Origin: an uncultured Lachnospiraceae bacterium
Lineage (GTDB): Bacteria; Bacillota; Clostridia; Lachnospirales; Lachnospiraceae
Length of the DNA stretch: 64,000 nt
Direction of reading: 5' to 3'
NCBI GenBank assembly: GCA_902774915.1
Contig: CACYKH010000001.1
Span: 180,642-244,641, forward strand
The translations under genes were made by a program, and so were the position numbers. The notes beneath the pieces are model-generated. The model ran no database searches and was not told where the DNA came from. It was given only the letters and a program-made list of their open reading frames with translations. This document shows, piece by piece, positions 1 through 6,400 of this stretch (positions within the stretch are counted from its first letter, which is position 1; each line of letters opens with the position of its first letter).

Positions 1-615
1 TGCAATAGTCATGTCTGAACTATCAATAAATACTGCATCCTCAGCCTGCTTAAGAGGGGCAATATCACGATTCATATCCTGATAATCTCTTGTCTCAATA
101 CCCTTCTTTATTTCTTCAAGATCTGGACTTTCGCCCTTAAGCTTAAGCTCATCAAATCTTCTCTTGGCTCTTACATCTACAGATGCTGTAAGGTAAATCT
201 TAAGCTCAGCATTTGGAAGGATATTTGTTCCAATATCTCTACCATCCATTATCACATCGTTCTTAGCAGCAATATCTCTCTGAAGATCGAGAAGCTTCTC
301 TCTTACTGGAGGAAGCGCTGATGAAGTAGATGCCATATTTCCAACCTTCTCGCTTCTGATTTCCTCAGATACATCAACAAGGTCGAGAAATACATGCTGA
401 ACTCCAGCTTCATAAACAATATTGATATGAATCTGCTCAAGTGCATTCTTAAGAGCAGCCTCATCATATATATCTACGTTATTATCAAGAAGTGAAAGAG
501 CTATTGCTCTATACATAGCTCCTGTATCTACATATACGAAGCCAAGTTCTTTGGCTGCAAGTCTTGCTATAGTACTTTTTCCTGCTCCAGCAGGTCCATC
601 AATTGCAATATTCAT
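1..615 (-). CDS. cmk: Cytidylate kinase, 3' end outside the window
   Basis: Phosphorylates CMP and dCMP with ATP in the cytoplasm for pyrimidine nucleotide synthesis. The 205 visible residues begin MNIAIDGPAGAGKST, a P-loop typical of Cmk, followed by the conserved segment VDTGAMYRA and later MDGRDIGT. The family is about 215-225 residues, so only a short C-terminal piece is missing past position 1. The ATG at 615 is preceded by GGAGGG about ten bases upstream. It is the downstream gene of the cluster starting with the flavoprotein at 6400; in many Clostridia the two are direct neighbours (from memory), but here the four-gene signalling module lies between them. Confidence 0.96.
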   Translation of the reverse strand, partial: MNIAIDGPAGAGKSTIARLAAKELGFVYVDTGAMYRAIALSLLDNNVDIYDEAALKNALEQIHINIVYEAGVQHVFLDLVDVSEEIRSEKVGNMASTSSALPPVREKLLDLQRDIAAKNDVIMDGRDIGTNILPNAELKIYLTASVDVRAKRRFDELKLKGESPDLEEIKKGIETRDYQDMNRDIAPLKQAEDAVFIDSSDMTIA

Positions 616-688: not shown

Positions 689-1996
689 TTAAGATATTAT
701 TTCTTTATTACCAGATGTAAATCTTATACGATAACCATCCTCTTCCTCAGCCATAACTTTCGCATAAACATATTCATTATTTATCTTGATCATGATATTG
801 GCTTTTTCATCAAGTACAGTTTTTGTACTTAGAATAGAATACTTCTTATCTTTTGTAATTCTTATAAGCTTACCAATAAACTTCTCTTCGTCAACCGTCT
901 TACCATCAAGCATAAAGAATGGATACTCATTATCATCTGTTCTATCAATCCATTCAAGGTTTTTATCAAAGCGATTATGAAGCTGCAGATCTCCAATTCC
1001 TTCAATTTCAAGAACTCTTAGCAGCTTAGAAGCACCTTTAGGAAGAATACTTGTTTCGTCAGATATGATCAATTCTTCTGATATAAGCTTCTGAACATTT
1101 TCAGTAATATAAATCTGTCCACCAACAGCCAGTCCCTCAACACGACCAGTAAGGTTTACAGTAGCTCCCATACAGCCATATTTCATTTTGTTTTCTGAAC
1201 CAATGTTCCCAACAATAGCCAAACCGGAATTAATACCAATACCCATTTCAAGTTCAGGTAATCCATTTTCAATGTTCCATTTATTAACCTCATCCATGGC
1301 ATTTTCCATCTCTATTGCACATTTGACTGCAAGAGATGCATGATCAGGCAGGTCACTCGGAGCACCAAACACAACAAAAATGCCATCTCCCAGGAACTCA
1401 ATAATAGTACCATTATTCTTTTCTATTATTTCTGACATCTTTTCAAAATAATGATTGAGTATAACGATTAGTTCATCTGGTGGAAGCTTAGTACTAATAG
1501 AGGTGAATCCTCTCAGGTCGCTCATAAGAATGGAAACTTCTTTATTAATTCCACCTCTTTTGTGACCATCCGGAGTTTCAAGAACGTACTTGGCAATATC
1601 ACGTGATGTATATCTTTCAAAGGCTTTATTAAGTTTAAGCAGCTGTGTAAGATCAGTAATTACGACAAGAACTTCTAGCTTATCTTCATTTGGGCATATG
1701 ATCCTTACATGAATATTATGAAGCTTATCCTCATTATCACGGTAATTAACAATGGCTTCATGGGAATCCTTTTTTTGATAAACCGCATCTAGAAAAAGCT
1801 GAATCAGATCATCATTATCAGCAATAAATGGTATAGCATCCCACAACTTAATATTACTATTCGAATCAATTCCGAATAGTTTTTCCATTGCAGGATTTGC
1901 ATACTCTATATAGCCTGTCGACGAGACAATACAGACAGCATCCCCAGAGTTCTGAGTTATAAAGCTACTTTGTTCAGCGCTTAACTCCCGAATCAT
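689..1996 (-). CDS. PAS-class III nucleotidyl cyclase with PilZ-like tail, guanylyl-cyclase-like active site
   Basis: Predicted to make a cyclic nucleotide from an NTP. An N-terminal PAS-like sensor (about residues 8-118) leads through a short linker to a class III cyclase domain (about 150-310) and a beta-rich C-terminal region (about 370-430) resembling PilZ but without a clear RxxxR motif. Both metal-binding Asp are present (D160 in MSDLRGFT, D204 in FLGDGIF), as are the transition-state pair N281 and R285 in VNLTGR. The purine-specifying positions are E200 and G274 (KYGCMG), where adenylyl cyclases normally have Lys and Asp/Thr; Glu is typical of guanylyl cyclases. No membrane segment is visible. 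A GGAGG precedes the ATG. It is the last gene of the 689-5057 module, behind a hairpin that may lower its expression. That it is a cyclase is near certain; GTP as substrate is inference. Confidence 0.9.
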   Translation of the reverse strand: MIRELSAEQSSFITQNSGDAVCIVSSTGYIEYANPAMEKLFGIDSNSNIKLWDAIPFIADNDDLIQLFLDAVYQKKDSHEAIVNYRDNEDKLHNIHVRIICPNEDKLEVLVVITDLTQLLKLNKAFERYTSRDIAKYVLETPDGHKRGGINKEVSILMSDLRGFTSISTKLPPDELIVILNHYFEKMSEIIEKNNGTIIEFLGDGIFVVFGAPSDLPDHASLAVKCAIEMENAMDEVNKWNIENGLPELEMGIGINSGLAIVGNIGSENKMKYGCMGATVNLTGRVEGLAVGGQIYITENVQKLISEELIISDETSILPKGASKLLRVLEIEGIGDLQLHNRFDKNLEWIDRTDDNEYPFFMLDGKTVDEEKFIGKLIRITKDKKYSILSTKTVLDEKANIMIKINNEYVYAKVMAEEEDGYRIRFTSGNKEIIS

Positions 1997-2016
1997 ACTA
2001 CTTCCTCCAAGATTTT

Positions 2017-2046
2017 AAAACGCCTGCCCCTATGAAAGAGCAGGCG
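2017..2046 (-). terminator. Hairpin between the cNMP-binding gene and the cyclase gene
   Basis: On the minus strand a GC-rich stem (CGCCTGC pairing with GCAGGCG, 2021-2027 with 2040-2046) is followed by TTTT. It lies in the 67-base gap between the two genes. The short U-run makes it a weak terminator or attenuator, which would let the upstream genes be expressed more than the cyclase. Confidence 0.6.
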
Positions 2047-2063
2047 CATAAAGCTCATGAATT

Positions 2064-2957
2064 TTAACTGTTTTCATAAATCTTCTTACAAACATTAAAG
2101 TAACTATCCGTAAGTTTACGAAGTCTGCGAGAAATATGACGAAGAATGTTATCTACCTCTCTAGGATTTGTTTTAAATAAATTTTCAAGACCATCTTCAG
2201 TGATTATTTCAACATAAGTTCCGTCCTCATCAGCCACAGCTGTAGCACTACGAACTTCCTGAGATAGCATTCCCATCTCTCCAAAGAACTCTCCAGAAAC
2301 AAGGTCTGTAAGTTTTTGCTGATTAACTGTACCATAGTCAGAATAGATTGATACTCTTCCGCCATATACTGCATACATGCAATTTCCAGCTTCACCCTGC
2401 TTGAAAATAATTGTGTTCTTAGCATAAACTTCCATGTTATTACAAGCTTTCTCATCGAAAATGCTATTTTCATCTCTTGTAGCTTCAACACTTGGTTTAT
2501 GGAGATTAACACTAGCTTTATAGTGATTTATATATTTTTGTATCTTCTTTATGAAGCTTTCATTTGATTTATCAGCACTATTCTCTTCTATGCTTTTTAA
2601 AACGCTTTTAGCTTCACTATATTCATTTGATAAATCTCTGATTCTGTCACCAATATTATTAATGATAGCTATAATTTTATCTGGTTGCTCGCTGAAGTAC
2701 TCACTTAAGCTTGTACCAGATATTTCTATAACATTTACACCAGATTCGGAAACAACCGTAGTACTTCTAGGTGTAGATTCAATTACAGCAAGCTCCCCAA
2801 AGTACTGACCAGCAACCACATCTGTAAGTTTAATTTCATTCTCTTTTTTATAATTAACGTATACCCCGGCTTTACCATCTAGAACCTGAAAGAAGCTATT
2901 TCCTTCTTCACCTTCATTAAAGACAATTTCACCCTTTCCAAAATATATTTCTTTCAT
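2064..2957 (-). CDS. Tandem cyclic-nucleotide-binding-domain protein
   Basis: 297 residues with two CAP-family cyclic-nucleotide-binding domains (about 5-112 and 170-285) joined by a charged helical linker. No DNA-binding helix-turn-helix or enzyme domain follows, so it is a receptor that probably acts through a partner protein. The first phosphate-binding cassette is near-canonical: FGELAVIE...PRSTT with R64 and S65. The second, FGEMGML...VRSAT (R236, S237), keeps the Arg but replaces the usual Pro. Ser or Thr just after the Arg is the arrangement seen in cGMP-selective sites such as PKG; PKA has Ala. The layout resembles a PKA or PKG regulatory unit without a kinase. An AGGGG precedes the ATG. 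Located between the STAS gene and the cyclase gene, it is the obvious receptor for that cyclase. Confidence 0.9.
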   Translation of the reverse strand: MKEIYFGKGEIVFNEGEEGNSFFQVLDGKAGVYVNYKKENEIKLTDVVAGQYFGELAVIESTPRSTTVVSESGVNVIEISGTSLSEYFSEQPDKIIAIINNIGDRIRDLSNEYSEAKSVLKSIEENSADKSNESFIKKIQKYINHYKASVNLHKPSVEATRDENSIFDEKACNNMEVYAKNTIIFKQGEAGNCMYAVYGGRVSIYSDYGTVNQQKLTDLVSGEFFGEMGMLSQEVRSATAVADEDGTYVEIITEDGLENLFKTNPREVDNILRHISRRLRKLTDSYFNVCKKIYENS

Positions 2958-2988
2958 ATTGCTACCCCTTTTAAAATATAAATTTGGA

Positions 2989-3288
2989 TTATTCTACTGT
3001 TAAGATATCGATAAATCCTGTAACCTCAAATATCTCCATGATGATCTCTGAACAATTTCTAATTACCATACTTCCCTGATTGCTCATAATCTTCTGAGCC
3101 AAAAGAAGTACTCTAAGTCCAGCAGATGAAATGTAAAGTAAATCCTTAAAGTCAAATTCTAAGTTCTCTATACCTTCAATATTTGCTTTTACTTCTTTCT
3201 CAAGATCTGGAGATGTATTTGTATCCAATCTTCCAGATAAAACAAACTCAAGATTCTTTCCATCTAATTTCTTTTCTATTTTTAACAC
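2989..3288 (-). CDS. STAS-domain anti-anti-sigma factor-like protein
   Basis: A single STAS domain of 99 residues, like RsbV and SpoIIAA, which bind an RsbW-type kinase and are controlled by Ser phosphorylation. I place the start at the GTG at 3288, six bases after a strong AAGGAGG; the open frame extends further upstream but lacks a ribosome site. Segment DLLYISSAGLRVLL holds the predicted phospho-acceptor, Ser55 by comparison with RsbV, with Ser54 where RsbV and SpoIIAA have Asp. Its likely partner is encoded next door: the RsbW-like domain fused to the transporter. No SpoIIE-type phosphatase is present in the window. Confidence 0.88.
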   Translation of the reverse strand: MLKIEKKLDGKNLEFVLSGRLDTNTSPDLEKEVKANIEGIENLEFDFKDLLYISSAGLRVLLLAQKIMSNQGSMVIRNCSEIIMEIFEVTGFIDILTVE

Positions 3289-3308
3289 GATAAGCCTCCT
3301 TATGATAT

Positions 3309-3344
3309 AACGAATGATGTTCATATTTTAACATATTATTCGTT
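3309..3344 (-). promoter_or_regulatory. Stem-loop ahead of the STAS gene
   Basis: An inverted repeat (AACGAAT/ATTCGTT, then ATGTT/AACAT inside) spans the end of the transporter gene and the leader of the STAS gene. It is not followed by a U-run, so it is more likely an mRNA-stability or translation element, or a protein site, than a terminator. Confidence 0.4.
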
Positions 3345-5057
3345 CTTATAAAACCTTAAAACATTTTTATTATAACCTGTTGTAGGAATATAATCCTTTT
3401 CTTCCTTCATACTTAGCAATTTATTAAGAAGAAGGGAACTTATACTTGTAATCTCCAGGTCTGGATCTGTTATATCAAATATCTTTCCAGAGTCACGGAA
3501 AATAAGTCTTACGCTGTCATCATCATAAAGAAGAGATACTTCAATGATCACCTTCTTATCTTCATTTTTCTCACGAATTGTTGAAAATATTTCTTCAGCA
3601 AAAAGTCTTGCTTTCATGGCTATCTTTCTATCATAACCATGCTTTTCAAACTGATCATGAATAGCTTCAGAAACATCGGCAATGCTATCTAAAGAAAGCA
3701 GGTCATCCATTACAACAATCTCATGATCCATATTTTCAAGTATCCAAGGAAATTTTTTCTTTCCAAAGTAAAAATATAGACATAGCATTGATATGATAAT
3801 AGCAAAGACTGGTGCAAGAGCAAACCCAATCCAAATACCATTAATTCCTATCAGTCTTCCAAATAAAAGAGGAAGAATCATATAAAGAACTCCATCCTTT
3901 AAGAAGGTTGCAACAACTGCAAACCAAATATGATCTGTATATAGATAATATGATGTTTCCAGCATAAAGAGGGCATTTGCAACAAATGCAGAACACATTA
4001 TTCTTATAGCAATAACTGCTGGTTCCATCAAGGCTGGATCATTAATTCCGAAAAGTCTTGCAAAGAAAGGTGCAAAAATGTAGACAATTACAGTGGCAAT
4101 AACACCTTCTATAATCGCCGTCAGAACCGTATCTTTCATAAGTCGCCTTATCAGAAGATGATTCTTTTCACCAAGATATACTCCAATAAGAGGCTGAATA
4201 GCCATACCAATTCCATCAAACACAACAGAAAACTCAATAAGAGAAACAGCAACTGCAAGTAATACCAGATACTCTTCTCCAAAGTTTCTGCTGATAAAGC
4301 TTATAAGAACGTAATCAACAACACCCCAAAGAAAATAATAAAGGCCGTCAGTGATACTGTACTTAATAGCTCTGATTAATTCTCTAAGGTTAAAATAATA
4401 AACGAATTTTAATGTATTAGCCTTGTTGGAAGAATGAAAAGATAAAGAAATAAGAGCTAGTAAATTACCAGCGCAGGTTCCCATCATGATTCCGCGAATA
4501 CCAAATAGTTTTGCAAAAACAATCGAAAGGCCAATATTACCAAAAAACTGTAAAAAATAGCTGATACTAACAACCTTTTCATCACCATCGTTATATATCA
4601 TCTGGCCGAAATATGTACAGAATATAAGTAAAACGCATTCAAGTGGTAAAAAGAAATAGAATTCTCTTGCAAGTTTAAGTATTTCACCTGTAGCACCACT
4701 TTGATTGAGATAAATATTCTTAAATATAAATATAAAAACAGGAATAACAATTGCAAGTATGGTATTTACCATAACTCCCATTCCGTAAAGCTTATCTGCT
4801 CTTTCTCTATCCATTTTTCCAATAGCTCTGGAATAAAGGACAGATGTACCTTCCGATACGCAAAGAGAAATAGCCATAGAAACACTCATAAGTGGAGCCA
4901 CAATATTAATAGCAGCAACTGCATCCTTACCGATCATTAATCCAGCTATGATGTTAGAACTAAGCAGCATAATATAAACCATTGCCATGGCAAAGGTTCC
5001 GGTAATCAGCATAGAATGATATTTAGTTTTGTAAAAACAAGCTGAATGATTATGCAT
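3336..5057 (-). CDS. MATE-family transporter fused to a degenerate RsbW-like ATPase domain
   Basis: 573 residues. Residues about 15-432 form a polytopic MATE/NorM-like transporter with some 12 hydrophobic helices. After the basic segment GKKKFPW a soluble domain (about 440-573) has the outline of an HATPase_c_2 domain of the RsbW/SpoIIAB type. N-box-like residues lie in ARLFAEEIFSTI: E488 is in place but Ser492 stands where the Mg-binding Asn belongs. RDSGKIFD (D522, G524) resembles the G1 box but lacks its second Gly, and no glycine-rich lid is evident. ATP binding or kinase activity is therefore doubtful. MATE proteins are usually about 450 residues, so the extension is real. It heads the four-gene module, 38 bases after the flavoprotein gene. 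A membrane-tethered partner for the STAS protein is the simplest inference; transported substrate is unknown. Confidence 0.85.
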   Translation of the reverse strand: MHNHSACFYKTKYHSMLITGTFAMAMVYIMLLSSNIIAGLMIGKDAVAAINIVAPLMSVSMAISLCVSEGTSVLYSRAIGKMDRERADKLYGMGVMVNTILAIVIPVFIFIFKNIYLNQSGATGEILKLAREFYFFLPLECVLLIFCTYFGQMIYNDGDEKVVSISYFLQFFGNIGLSIVFAKLFGIRGIMMGTCAGNLLALISLSFHSSNKANTLKFVYYFNLRELIRAIKYSITDGLYYFLWGVVDYVLISFISRNFGEEYLVLLAVAVSLIEFSVVFDGIGMAIQPLIGVYLGEKNHLLIRRLMKDTVLTAIIEGVIATVIVYIFAPFFARLFGINDPALMEPAVIAIRIMCSAFVANALFMLETSYYLYTDHIWFAVVATFLKDGVLYMILPLLFGRLIGINGIWIGFALAPVFAIIISMLCLYFYFGKKKFPWILENMDHEIVVMDDLLSLDSIADVSEAIHDQFEKHGYDRKIAMKARLFAEEIFSTIREKNEDKKVIIEVSLLYDDDSVRLIFRDSGKIFDITDPDLEITSISSLLLNKLLSMKEEKDYIPTTGYNKNVLRFYKNE

Positions 5058-5095: not shown

Positions 5096-6400
5096 TTACT
5101 CTGCTGCCATAAATGCAGTTGACCAGGCTATTTGTAAATTAAAGCCACCAGTCAGAGCATCGCAGTCTATAATCTCTCCTGCAACTCGCAGGTTCTTTAT
5201 CTTTTTAAGCTCCATATTCTGTGGATTTATTTCCTTAACCGAAATACCACCACCAGTTATTATTGCCTCATCAAAGCCTCTAAGCCCACTTAAATGAAGT
5301 CTAAAATGTTTTAATGTATTGATAAGACTTTTTCTTTCTTCTGCGGTTATAGAATTTACTTTCTTATCTGGTTTAATACCACTTCTTTCAATCACTGCAG
5401 GAATCATAAGTCTTGGAAGAAGTTTTCCTAAGCTGTTTTGAAAATCTCTGTTATGGAATTCTTCAAAATCTCTTAGTACTCTCTTATCCAGATCTTCTTC
5501 AGAAAGGGCTGGTTTTAAATCGATTTCAAGAGTTATTCCTGAAAAATCATTATTCTCTTTAGCGCAGAAAGAACTAATATGGGAAGAAGCTGAAAGACAT
5601 AGTGGGCCACTTACTCCAAAATGAGTAAAAAGCATCTCTCCCATATCTGAATAAAGAACTTTGTCTTTCTTTAAGCTCTTATAAACTTCTTTAGATGCAA
5701 TAACCTTAAGATTAACATTCTTGAGGGCAAGGCCCATCATATCTTTAACAAAGTCCTCTTTAGTCACTAAAGGTACAAGAGAACATCTTACTGGAACTAT
5801 ATCAATCCCGTAATCTTCAAGGAATCTATAACCATCACCTGTAGATCCTGTGGCCTGATACGAATAACCACCTGTTGTGATTACTATTACATCTGCATCT
5901 AACCTGTAACTACTCTTTTTATTATTTAAATCAGAAACTTCAACGCCAACGGCTTTTCTGATATATTTTTCATTTTCATTATTATATTCTTCTGTGATTA
6001 TATCTAATACTTTTGAATTATATTTAACTTCGATATTTCTTTTATTTAGCTGTTCCCTGAGAGCTTTAATAACATCAGAGGAATGGTCTGATACAGGAAA
6101 TACTCTGTTACCCCTTTCAGTCTTAAGGCGTACTCCCCAGCTCTCAAAATCATTCATAACAGCTGACTGATTATATGAATAAATGGCACTATAAAGAAAC
6201 TTCGGATTAGTAACAACATTTTTAAGGAATGTTTCTTCATCCGAATTATTGGTAACATTACACCTGCCCTTGCCAGTGATATAAAGTTTCTTACCAGGGC
6301 GGTCATTCTTTTCTATAATTGTAACTTCGTAGTTTTCAGATGCGTGGATGGCCGTCATCATACCGGCTGCGCCAGCACCTATTATTATCATTTTCTTCAT
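5096..6400 (-). CDS. BaiN/HI0933-family FAD-dependent oxidoreductase
   Basis: 434 residues of the HI0933/YhiN/BaiN flavoprotein family, often annotated as aminoacetone oxidase-like. The N-terminus MIIIGAGAAGMMTAIHA is a Rossmann dinucleotide-binding fold with the GxGxxG motif. GKGRCNVTN and the C-terminal GGGISVKEI and ALTGGFNLQIAW segments are family hallmarks. The physiological substrate is not settled; some gut Clostridia homologues act on bile-acid intermediates. The gene ends 38 bases before the transporter gene and probably shares its transcript. No promoter was recognised in the 74 bases between it and the oadA terminator side. Confidence 0.93.
   Translation of the reverse strand: MKKMIIIGAGAAGMMTAIHASENYEVTIIEKNDRPGKKLYITGKGRCNVTNNSDEETFLKNVVTNPKFLYSAIYSYNQSAVMNDFESWGVRLKTERGNRVFPVSDHSSDVIKALREQLNKRNIEVKYNSKVLDIITEEYNNENEKYIRKAVGVEVSDLNNKKSSYRLDADVIVITTGGYSYQATGSTGDGYRFLEDYGIDIVPVRCSLVPLVTKEDFVKDMMGLALKNVNLKVIASKEVYKSLKKDKVLYSDMGEMLFTHFGVSGPLCLSASSHISSFCAKENNDFSGITLEIDLKPALSEEDLDKRVLRDFEEFHNRDFQNSLGKLLPRLMIPAVIERSGIKPDKKVNSITAEERKSLINTLKHFRLHLSGLRGFDEAIITGGGISVKEINPQNMELKKIKNLRVAGEIIDCDALTGGFNLQIAWSTAFMAAE

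Follow-up and report, generated by a model that had tools for sequence, protein, structure and literature searches.

We describe four adjacent genes that we tentatively read, with confidence somewhat short of even, as a signalling cassette turning an internal stimulus into changed transporter activity. They lie in a window of 64,000 nucleotides (the whole stretch of DNA analysed) from an uncultured Lachnospiraceae bacterium (assembly GCA_902774915.1, contig CACYKH010000001.1, positions 180,642-244,641 of the forward strand), as consecutive open reading frames (ORFs) on the minus strand. In reading order, they encode a MATE transporter with a C-terminal RsbW/SpoIIAB-like domain (MATE-W), an RsbV-type STAS protein, a protein of two cyclic nucleotide-binding (CNB) domains, and a PAS-containing nucleotidyl cyclase. 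Under our model, the PAS domain would sense a signal and the cyclase, which by its residues is of the Cya2 type, would make cyclic guanosine monophosphate (cGMP). This cGMP would bind the tandem CNB protein, which, judging by gene neighbourhoods, may shift the phosphorylation of the STAS protein through an RsbW kinase or PP2C phosphatase acting in trans, most likely from an operon on contig C12 of the same genome. Only unphosphorylated STAS protein would then dock on the kinase-dead tail of the transporter and gate the exporter, a step suggested by the predicted fold of the tail and its loss of motifs. The component parts are known; we infer their wiring.

The cyclase (689..1996, minus strand, 435 amino acids) joins a PAS domain (residues ~13-118) to a class III cyclase domain (~146-336; Pfam Guanylate_cyc, 3e-27), as an initial annotation of this DNA had read it. 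That annotation had also named four consecutive same-strand genes, and these are present as minus-strand ORFs with their domains confirmed by Pfam. The predicted product is cGMP because the enzyme shares with Cya2 of Synechocystis the E/G substrate pair (rather than K/D or K/T) and all catalytic residues, among them the two metal-binding Asp and the N/R transition-state pair, and because it falls among E-type cyclases in a tree. Identity to Cya2 reaches 46% over the catalytic domain, and E-G is described as the Cya2 specificity pair (PMC4215837). Among 17 aligned cyclases of the CNB-linked type, window included, 14 carry E/G and 3 carry E/N. By contrast, a second class III cyclase of the same genome (C18), the cyclase of locus L071 and CyaB all carry K/T, and the tree sets the K/T group apart from the E-type cyclases, among them Cya2, with support of 98/95, the two reference branches being long. 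The window enzyme differs from Cya2 in its input domain, which is PAS where Cya2 is described as having CHASE2 (PMC5995499), and in its setting, a Lachnospiraceae genome with a CNB gene alongside.

Several observations count against cGMP as the messenger. The residue after the conserved Arg of the CNB domains (Ser) cannot discriminate cGMP from cyclic adenosine monophosphate (cAMP), and the K/T cyclase of the genome could supply the same receptor with cAMP. The best solved structures matching the cyclase, 6fht (a phytochrome-cyclase fusion, 1.6e-54) and 2w01 (2e-50), are both named adenylate cyclase in the PDB. However, 2W01 is described as Cya2, a guanylate cyclase on which the change E488K confers adenylate cyclase activity (PMC5995499), and 6fht would be a variant of this kind. 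Finally, a Tyr described as enhancing the guanylate cyclase activity of Cya2 (PMC4215837; VNLTYR) is Gly in the window cyclase (VNLTGR).

Class III cyclases had been thought uncommon in Lachnospiraceae, and this did not hold as stated: some match to the cyclase protein was found in 43 of 200 genomes of the family and 44 of 61 of the genus (own genome included; some matches cover PAS only). It is the E/G type that is rare, with a complete copy in 7 of the 61 genus genomes, own included. Genome G242 carries two cyclase fragments only and was left out of the locus survey.

The second gene of the core (2064..2957, minus strand, 297 amino acids) encodes two cNMP_binding Pfam domains (2e-35; 121 bits against a cut-off of 27.5) and nothing else, which agrees with the earlier description of a tandem receptor without output domain. 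Both domains hold the Glu and Arg of the phosphate cassette, E55/R64 and E227/R236, which are invariant in 13 proteins. The structural model reached a predicted local distance difference test (pLDDT) score of 79.5 and a predicted template modelling (TM) score of 0.63, with PKA-R and PKG matches at TM ~0.3, and the arrangement of the domains is unsure. The tandem CNB is the sole CNB protein found in this genome (assembly 98.9% complete), whose two family matches at E <= 0.001 both lie within it. Among 398 genomes of the phylum, a full tandem match at E <= 1e-20 occurred in this genome only; another 28 had partial matches of about one CNB domain each. Fusion of CNB to PP2C as a general rule was rejected, since all six of the 28 partial matches that were scanned carry DUF2225, not SpoIIE.

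The tandem CNB gene is present in 4 of the 61 genus genomes, each time as the gene immediately before the cyclase, which we judge to be beyond chance. CNB genes adjoin the cyclase or sit one gene from it in six of nine E/G loci found with the cyclase query, with no CNB gene at either distance in G239, G236 and G212. From the other side, the CNB query gave 13 contig loci, of which eight (L101-L108) also hold a cyclase and L109 does not; L110-L113 were left out. Cyclase and CNB protein are the conserved core of the locus.

Between these two genes lies a GC-rich, conserved hairpin followed by TTTT (2021..2046, minus strand), and such a hairpin with T's after it occurs in all four same-genus loci having both genes. 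From the four sequences, few as they are, RNAalifold derived 11 pairs. Three show double changes by which pairing is maintained, and each of the two innermost is broken in one sequence. None of 200 shuffles folds as well as the window hairpin (z -3.67), which is absent from the list of a simple promoter/terminator scan, which showed no clear excess over shuffles (35 vs 29.2, standard deviation 6.0, and 4 vs 3.8, standard deviation 1.7). The element may be a weak terminator holding cyclase output below that of the receptor, or an attenuator.

Another reading is a Pycsar-like antiphage system, in which a cyclic pyrimidine nucleotide would be made on infection and the CNB and MATE proteins would serve as effectors. 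PADLOC PycC models do match the cyclase (best 5e-20), and the CNB domains are matched by TIR-effector models (5.9e-21) and by the CNB part of PycTIR models (1.6e-19). Still, we consider this reading very improbable: the cyclase is closer to Cya2 (2e-50, in a different library) and carries a GTP-type pair, the CNB protein has no TIR or membrane domain in Pfam, and Pycsar systems, to our knowledge, have no place for STAS or RsbW.

A described parallel for a cyclase-receptor core is XC_0250/XC_0249 of Xanthomonas campestris, where a guanylate cyclase gene is likewise linked to a CNB-receptor gene (PMC3770947). The Xanthomonas receptor is described as carrying a GGDEF output (PMC3770947), whereas ours consists of two CNB domains without output, and its neighbours are partner-switch genes. 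Cyclic-nucleotide control of PP2C has been proposed for Myxococcales phosphatases with a CNB domain (PMC2887360). Here the two occur as neighbouring genes in G227 and as a fusion in L071, and the window locus lacks PP2C. TIGR03896 (cyc_nuc_ocin, bacteriocin-type transport-associated protein), which we take to have a two-CNB make-up, matches both domains of the window protein, but at 42 bits against a cut-off of 161, so that the protein is not a member.

The other half of the cassette pairs a STAS protein with the transporter. The STAS protein (2989..3288, minus strand, 99 amino acids; Pfam STAS, 4e-11) was listed as a 111-amino-acid ORF from ATG 3324. Its start is most likely GTG 3288, as the 12 other aligned STAS proteins begin within two residues of that point, and AGGAGG (3295..3300, minus strand), the likely ribosome-binding site, stands just before it. 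With this start, the gaps between the genes are 47, 31 and 67 bases (MATE/STAS, STAS/CNB and CNB/cyclase). The earlier assignment to the RsbV type was well founded: the 111-amino-acid ORF scores 58.1 bits on TIGR00377 (cut-off 53.45), and the phosphoacceptor motif SSAG is present in 13 of 13 STAS proteins and aligns with DSTG of RsbV (6m36_B).

The transporter (3336..5057, minus strand, 573 amino acids; Pfam MatE, 6e-22) had been said to carry an RsbW-like domain. This is supported for the predicted fold of its tail (~residues 436-573; 3336..3752, minus strand), in which kinase motifs are lost. Pfam, HATPase_c_2 included, finds no such domain in the protein at a limit of E 0.1, and a profile search of PDB sequences with the tail reached RsbW only at E 0.17. 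Profile-profile comparison with nine RsbW relatives gave a probability of 93 and E 3.5e-7 over 114 columns. An AlphaFold model of the tail (pLDDT 87.4, 18 sequences) best matched Bacillus subtilis RsbW (6m37, TM 0.65/0.77) and SpoIIAB (1til, 0.73/0.74), ahead of histidine kinases. We therefore predict that the tail folds like RsbW/SpoIIAB.

Its catalytic motifs are another matter. In the window tail, the N-box Asn is replaced by Thr, GGxG is gone and the ATP lid is shortened, the last being true of most MATE-fused domains. The N-box Asn and GGxG are kept together in 0 of 21 MATE-fused domains vs 10 of 10 RsbW-type domains (nine separate genes and one PP2C fusion), the Asn alone persisting in two of the 21 (L175 and L101). 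The Asp of the next motif is kept in 20 of the 21, so the tail could still bind ATP. We rejected an active kinase on the loss of these motifs and predict that the MATE-fused domain is catalytically dead. This makes the tail a likely STAS-binding pseudo-kinase: rather than phosphorylating the STAS protein, it more probably serves as its target, and fold and motifs favour a docking platform.

In the classic partner switches RsbU/RsbV/RsbW and SpoIIE/SpoIIAA/SpoIIAB, the output is a sigma factor. Our locus shares with them an RsbV-type STAS protein with its Ser and the predicted RsbW/SpoIIAB fold, and PP2C, RsbW and STAS genes are present elsewhere in the genome. It differs in having what appears to be a transporter as output and a cyclic nucleotide as input, and in an RsbW-like domain that forms part of the MATE protein and has lost its kinase motifs. 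The window system could nonetheless be a sigma-factor switch, with the tail holding a sigma factor until STAS binds and the MATE part acting as anchor or substrate sensor. The resemblance of both proteins to RsbV and RsbW, and the presence of SpoIIAB-sigmaF complexes among the structural matches of the tail, speak for this. We regard it as unlikely, as the genome has separate, intact RsbW genes and the MATE part is conserved along its entire length in 13 relatives.

Those relatives are the 13 other MATE-W loci of the genus at 44-46% identity. One of them (44%) lies in the same genome, where contig C12 carries PP2C, RsbW, STAS, non-ribosomal peptide synthetase (NRPS) and MATE-W in succession (L158 2753-9671). 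The C12 STAS protein is 74% identical to that of the window, and the operon could be the source of kinase and phosphatase for the window STAS protein; PP2C and RsbW also occur on C2 of the genome. The C12 NRPS has AMP-binding, carrier and condensation domains (A-PCP-C), which places a partner switch beside a small NRPS and a likely exporter. This gene order is repeated with added genes in G228, G223 and G202, and MATE-W precedes the large gene in G218. A protein of ~1000 residues is found in five of the 13 loci, the domain scan having been done on the C12 copy. PP2C, RsbW or STAS lies in the stretch at eight of the 13. As a scale for chance, four SpoIIE domains in 2.61 Mb would put one in ~2.5% of random 16-kb stretches, and related genomes are not independent.

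We examined whether partner-switch genes recur at related cyclases across the 17 CNB-type loci, namely the nine E/G loci from the cyclase query (window included) and L101-L108 from the CNB query, of which L106 and L107 carry a nearly identical cyclase. Sixteen fetched stretches were searched with RsbW, PP2C, STAS and MATE-W queries. Partner-switch genes lie near five of the 17 loci, window included. G227 has RsbW, STAS and PP2C, then CNB and cyclase; L103 has RsbW and STAS, then cyclase and CNB; and L106 has a MATE-RsbW fusion and a PP2C-RsbW fusion with cyclase and CNB. L101, from Pseudobutyrivibrio, has RsbW, STAS and a MATE-HATPase fusion, then cyclase and CNB, so all four component types of the window are there along with a separate RsbW, although its MATE part is only 21% identical to ours. 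At the K/T cyclase locus L071, STAS, RsbW and a CNB-SpoIIE fusion stand side by side.

These loci bear on the main alternative, which is that two unrelated pairs lie together: CNB and cyclase, with a target elsewhere, and MATE-W and STAS, served by a C12-type switch, the two sharing a transcript or simply standing side by side after a one-off insertion. We give this an appreciable chance, though one well below even. Several observations tell against a single cassette, some of them also in favour of this alternative. Among the stretches read, only the window has the exact set and order of four genes, and no partner-switch gene was found in the stretches of 12 of the 17 loci (L107 and L115 being under 4 kb), so the CNB-cyclase pair can exist without them. 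At G225, L102, L104, L105, L108, G079 and G080, the core stands without such genes in stretches of 14.9-20.9 kb. CNB or cyclase genes occur in 0 of the 13 other MATE-W loci in the stretches read, and five of these loci (two near contig ends) show no PP2C, RsbW or STAS. Neither the RsbW nor the PP2C query finds a relative in the window, which thus has no complete partner switch, and the conserved hairpin parts CNB from cyclase. By contrast, partner-switch genes join the cyclase-CNB core in four further loci, where the forms of MATE and PP2C differ, suggesting that the association has arisen or been retained repeatedly, and the fusion in L071 joins CNB to PP2C in one protein. The proposal that a cyclic nucleotide acts on the STAS/RsbW pairing or on the transporter is retained in part. 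The link recurs (G227, L101, L103 and L106), while the nucleotide is now predicted to be cGMP and the MATE domain is more likely the target of STAS than a kinase; co-occurrence of all four genes in this form was not borne out beyond the window in the stretches read.

The chromosomal setting also fits two separate pairs. Upstream, 38 bases from the block, lies a gene for an HI0933-like flavin adenine dinucleotide (FAD) protein (5096..6400, minus strand), and 73 bases downstream lies cmk, for cytidylate kinase (1..615, minus strand, cut by the window edge); by Pfam and relatives, both are boundaries outside the module. A match to HI0933 was found in 52 of the 61 genomes of the genus. Besides the window's own locus, the 29 best HI0933 loci were examined for spacing, and cmk lies <=1.5 kb away in 21 of them, with a gap of <450 bases in 16 of these. 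Nine of ten larger stretches show both genes with 0-5 other ORFs in between, and none of these ORFs in the nine relatives is related to the four window proteins. The slot is variable, and among the stretches read the four genes are met there only in the window. This fits their arrival as one block, without proving so. Plasmid origin was rejected: the cyclase protein has matches in 185 plasmid records, with identity below 60% and coverage of the protein below 80% in every case.

Other genes near the related cyclases deserve mention. A RelA/SpoT-domain gene at L106 1793-2887 separates the MATE-W end from the PP2C-RsbW fusion. In G227 (L114 461-6550), NHLM-type bacteriocin export genes adjoin the cyclase (ABC1 above cut-off, ABC2 just below, the secretion-protein match weak), with an 87-amino-acid ORF that has no family match and a GG-like site and may encode a peptide. 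A few genes before the core of G079 (L063 3-2819) is a protein with AMP-binding, carrier and reductase-like (NAD_binding_4) domains. A protein of ~400 amino acids beside STAS in L101 and L103 was considered as a double RsbW-like domain and rejected (hhalign probability 0.5; the L101 copy has no Pfam match).

A TIM-barrel gene lies near cyclases of three kinds at eight loci: L101 7764-8552, L103 3028-3837, L108 10971-11771, L063 8570-9361, L117 6987-7772, L071 11616-12401, L066 12323-13108 and L068 11824-12597 (Pfam AP_endonuc_2 in six; similarity in L103 and L117). Its invariant residues, H70, H111, E148, D175, H178, H201, D210, H212 and E241, are reminiscent of the metal ligands of endonuclease IV, and the protein could be a cyclic-nucleotide phosphodiesterase. 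It was rejected as a fixed part of the cassette, since the window genome gave no match to it at E <= 1e-10; within the genus, the match is strong in G239 only, beside the cyclase, and weak in G209. Sister Cya2-like cyclases of Lachnospiraceae with an E/N pair (4 of 4; L065 4453-5226, L066 10368-11282, L067 8914-9822 and L068 9890-10819) lie directly beside genes with TIR-like PADLOC matches and could form a cyclic-nucleotide system with a TIR effector. The TIM-barrel gene is near two of them, and a GAF-GGDEF gene is near that of L066.

A paper of 2013 calls cGMP poorly understood as a bacterial messenger (PMC3770947). We found no open-licence paper that brings STAS, RsbW or partner switching together with cyclic nucleotides or MATE, in full-text searches and in looser ones judged by title. 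It is possible, although we hold it as doubtful rather than probable, that exporters of the MATE family bearing a kinase-dead RsbW tail make up a class of transporters gated by phosphorylation, in this lineage brought under cGMP control so as to give a member of the Lachnospiraceae a complete cGMP pathway. If so, the partner switch would act directly on a transporter rather than on transcription, and a transporter with a dead copy of an anti-sigma kinase would show that docking is a way for partner switches to steer one.

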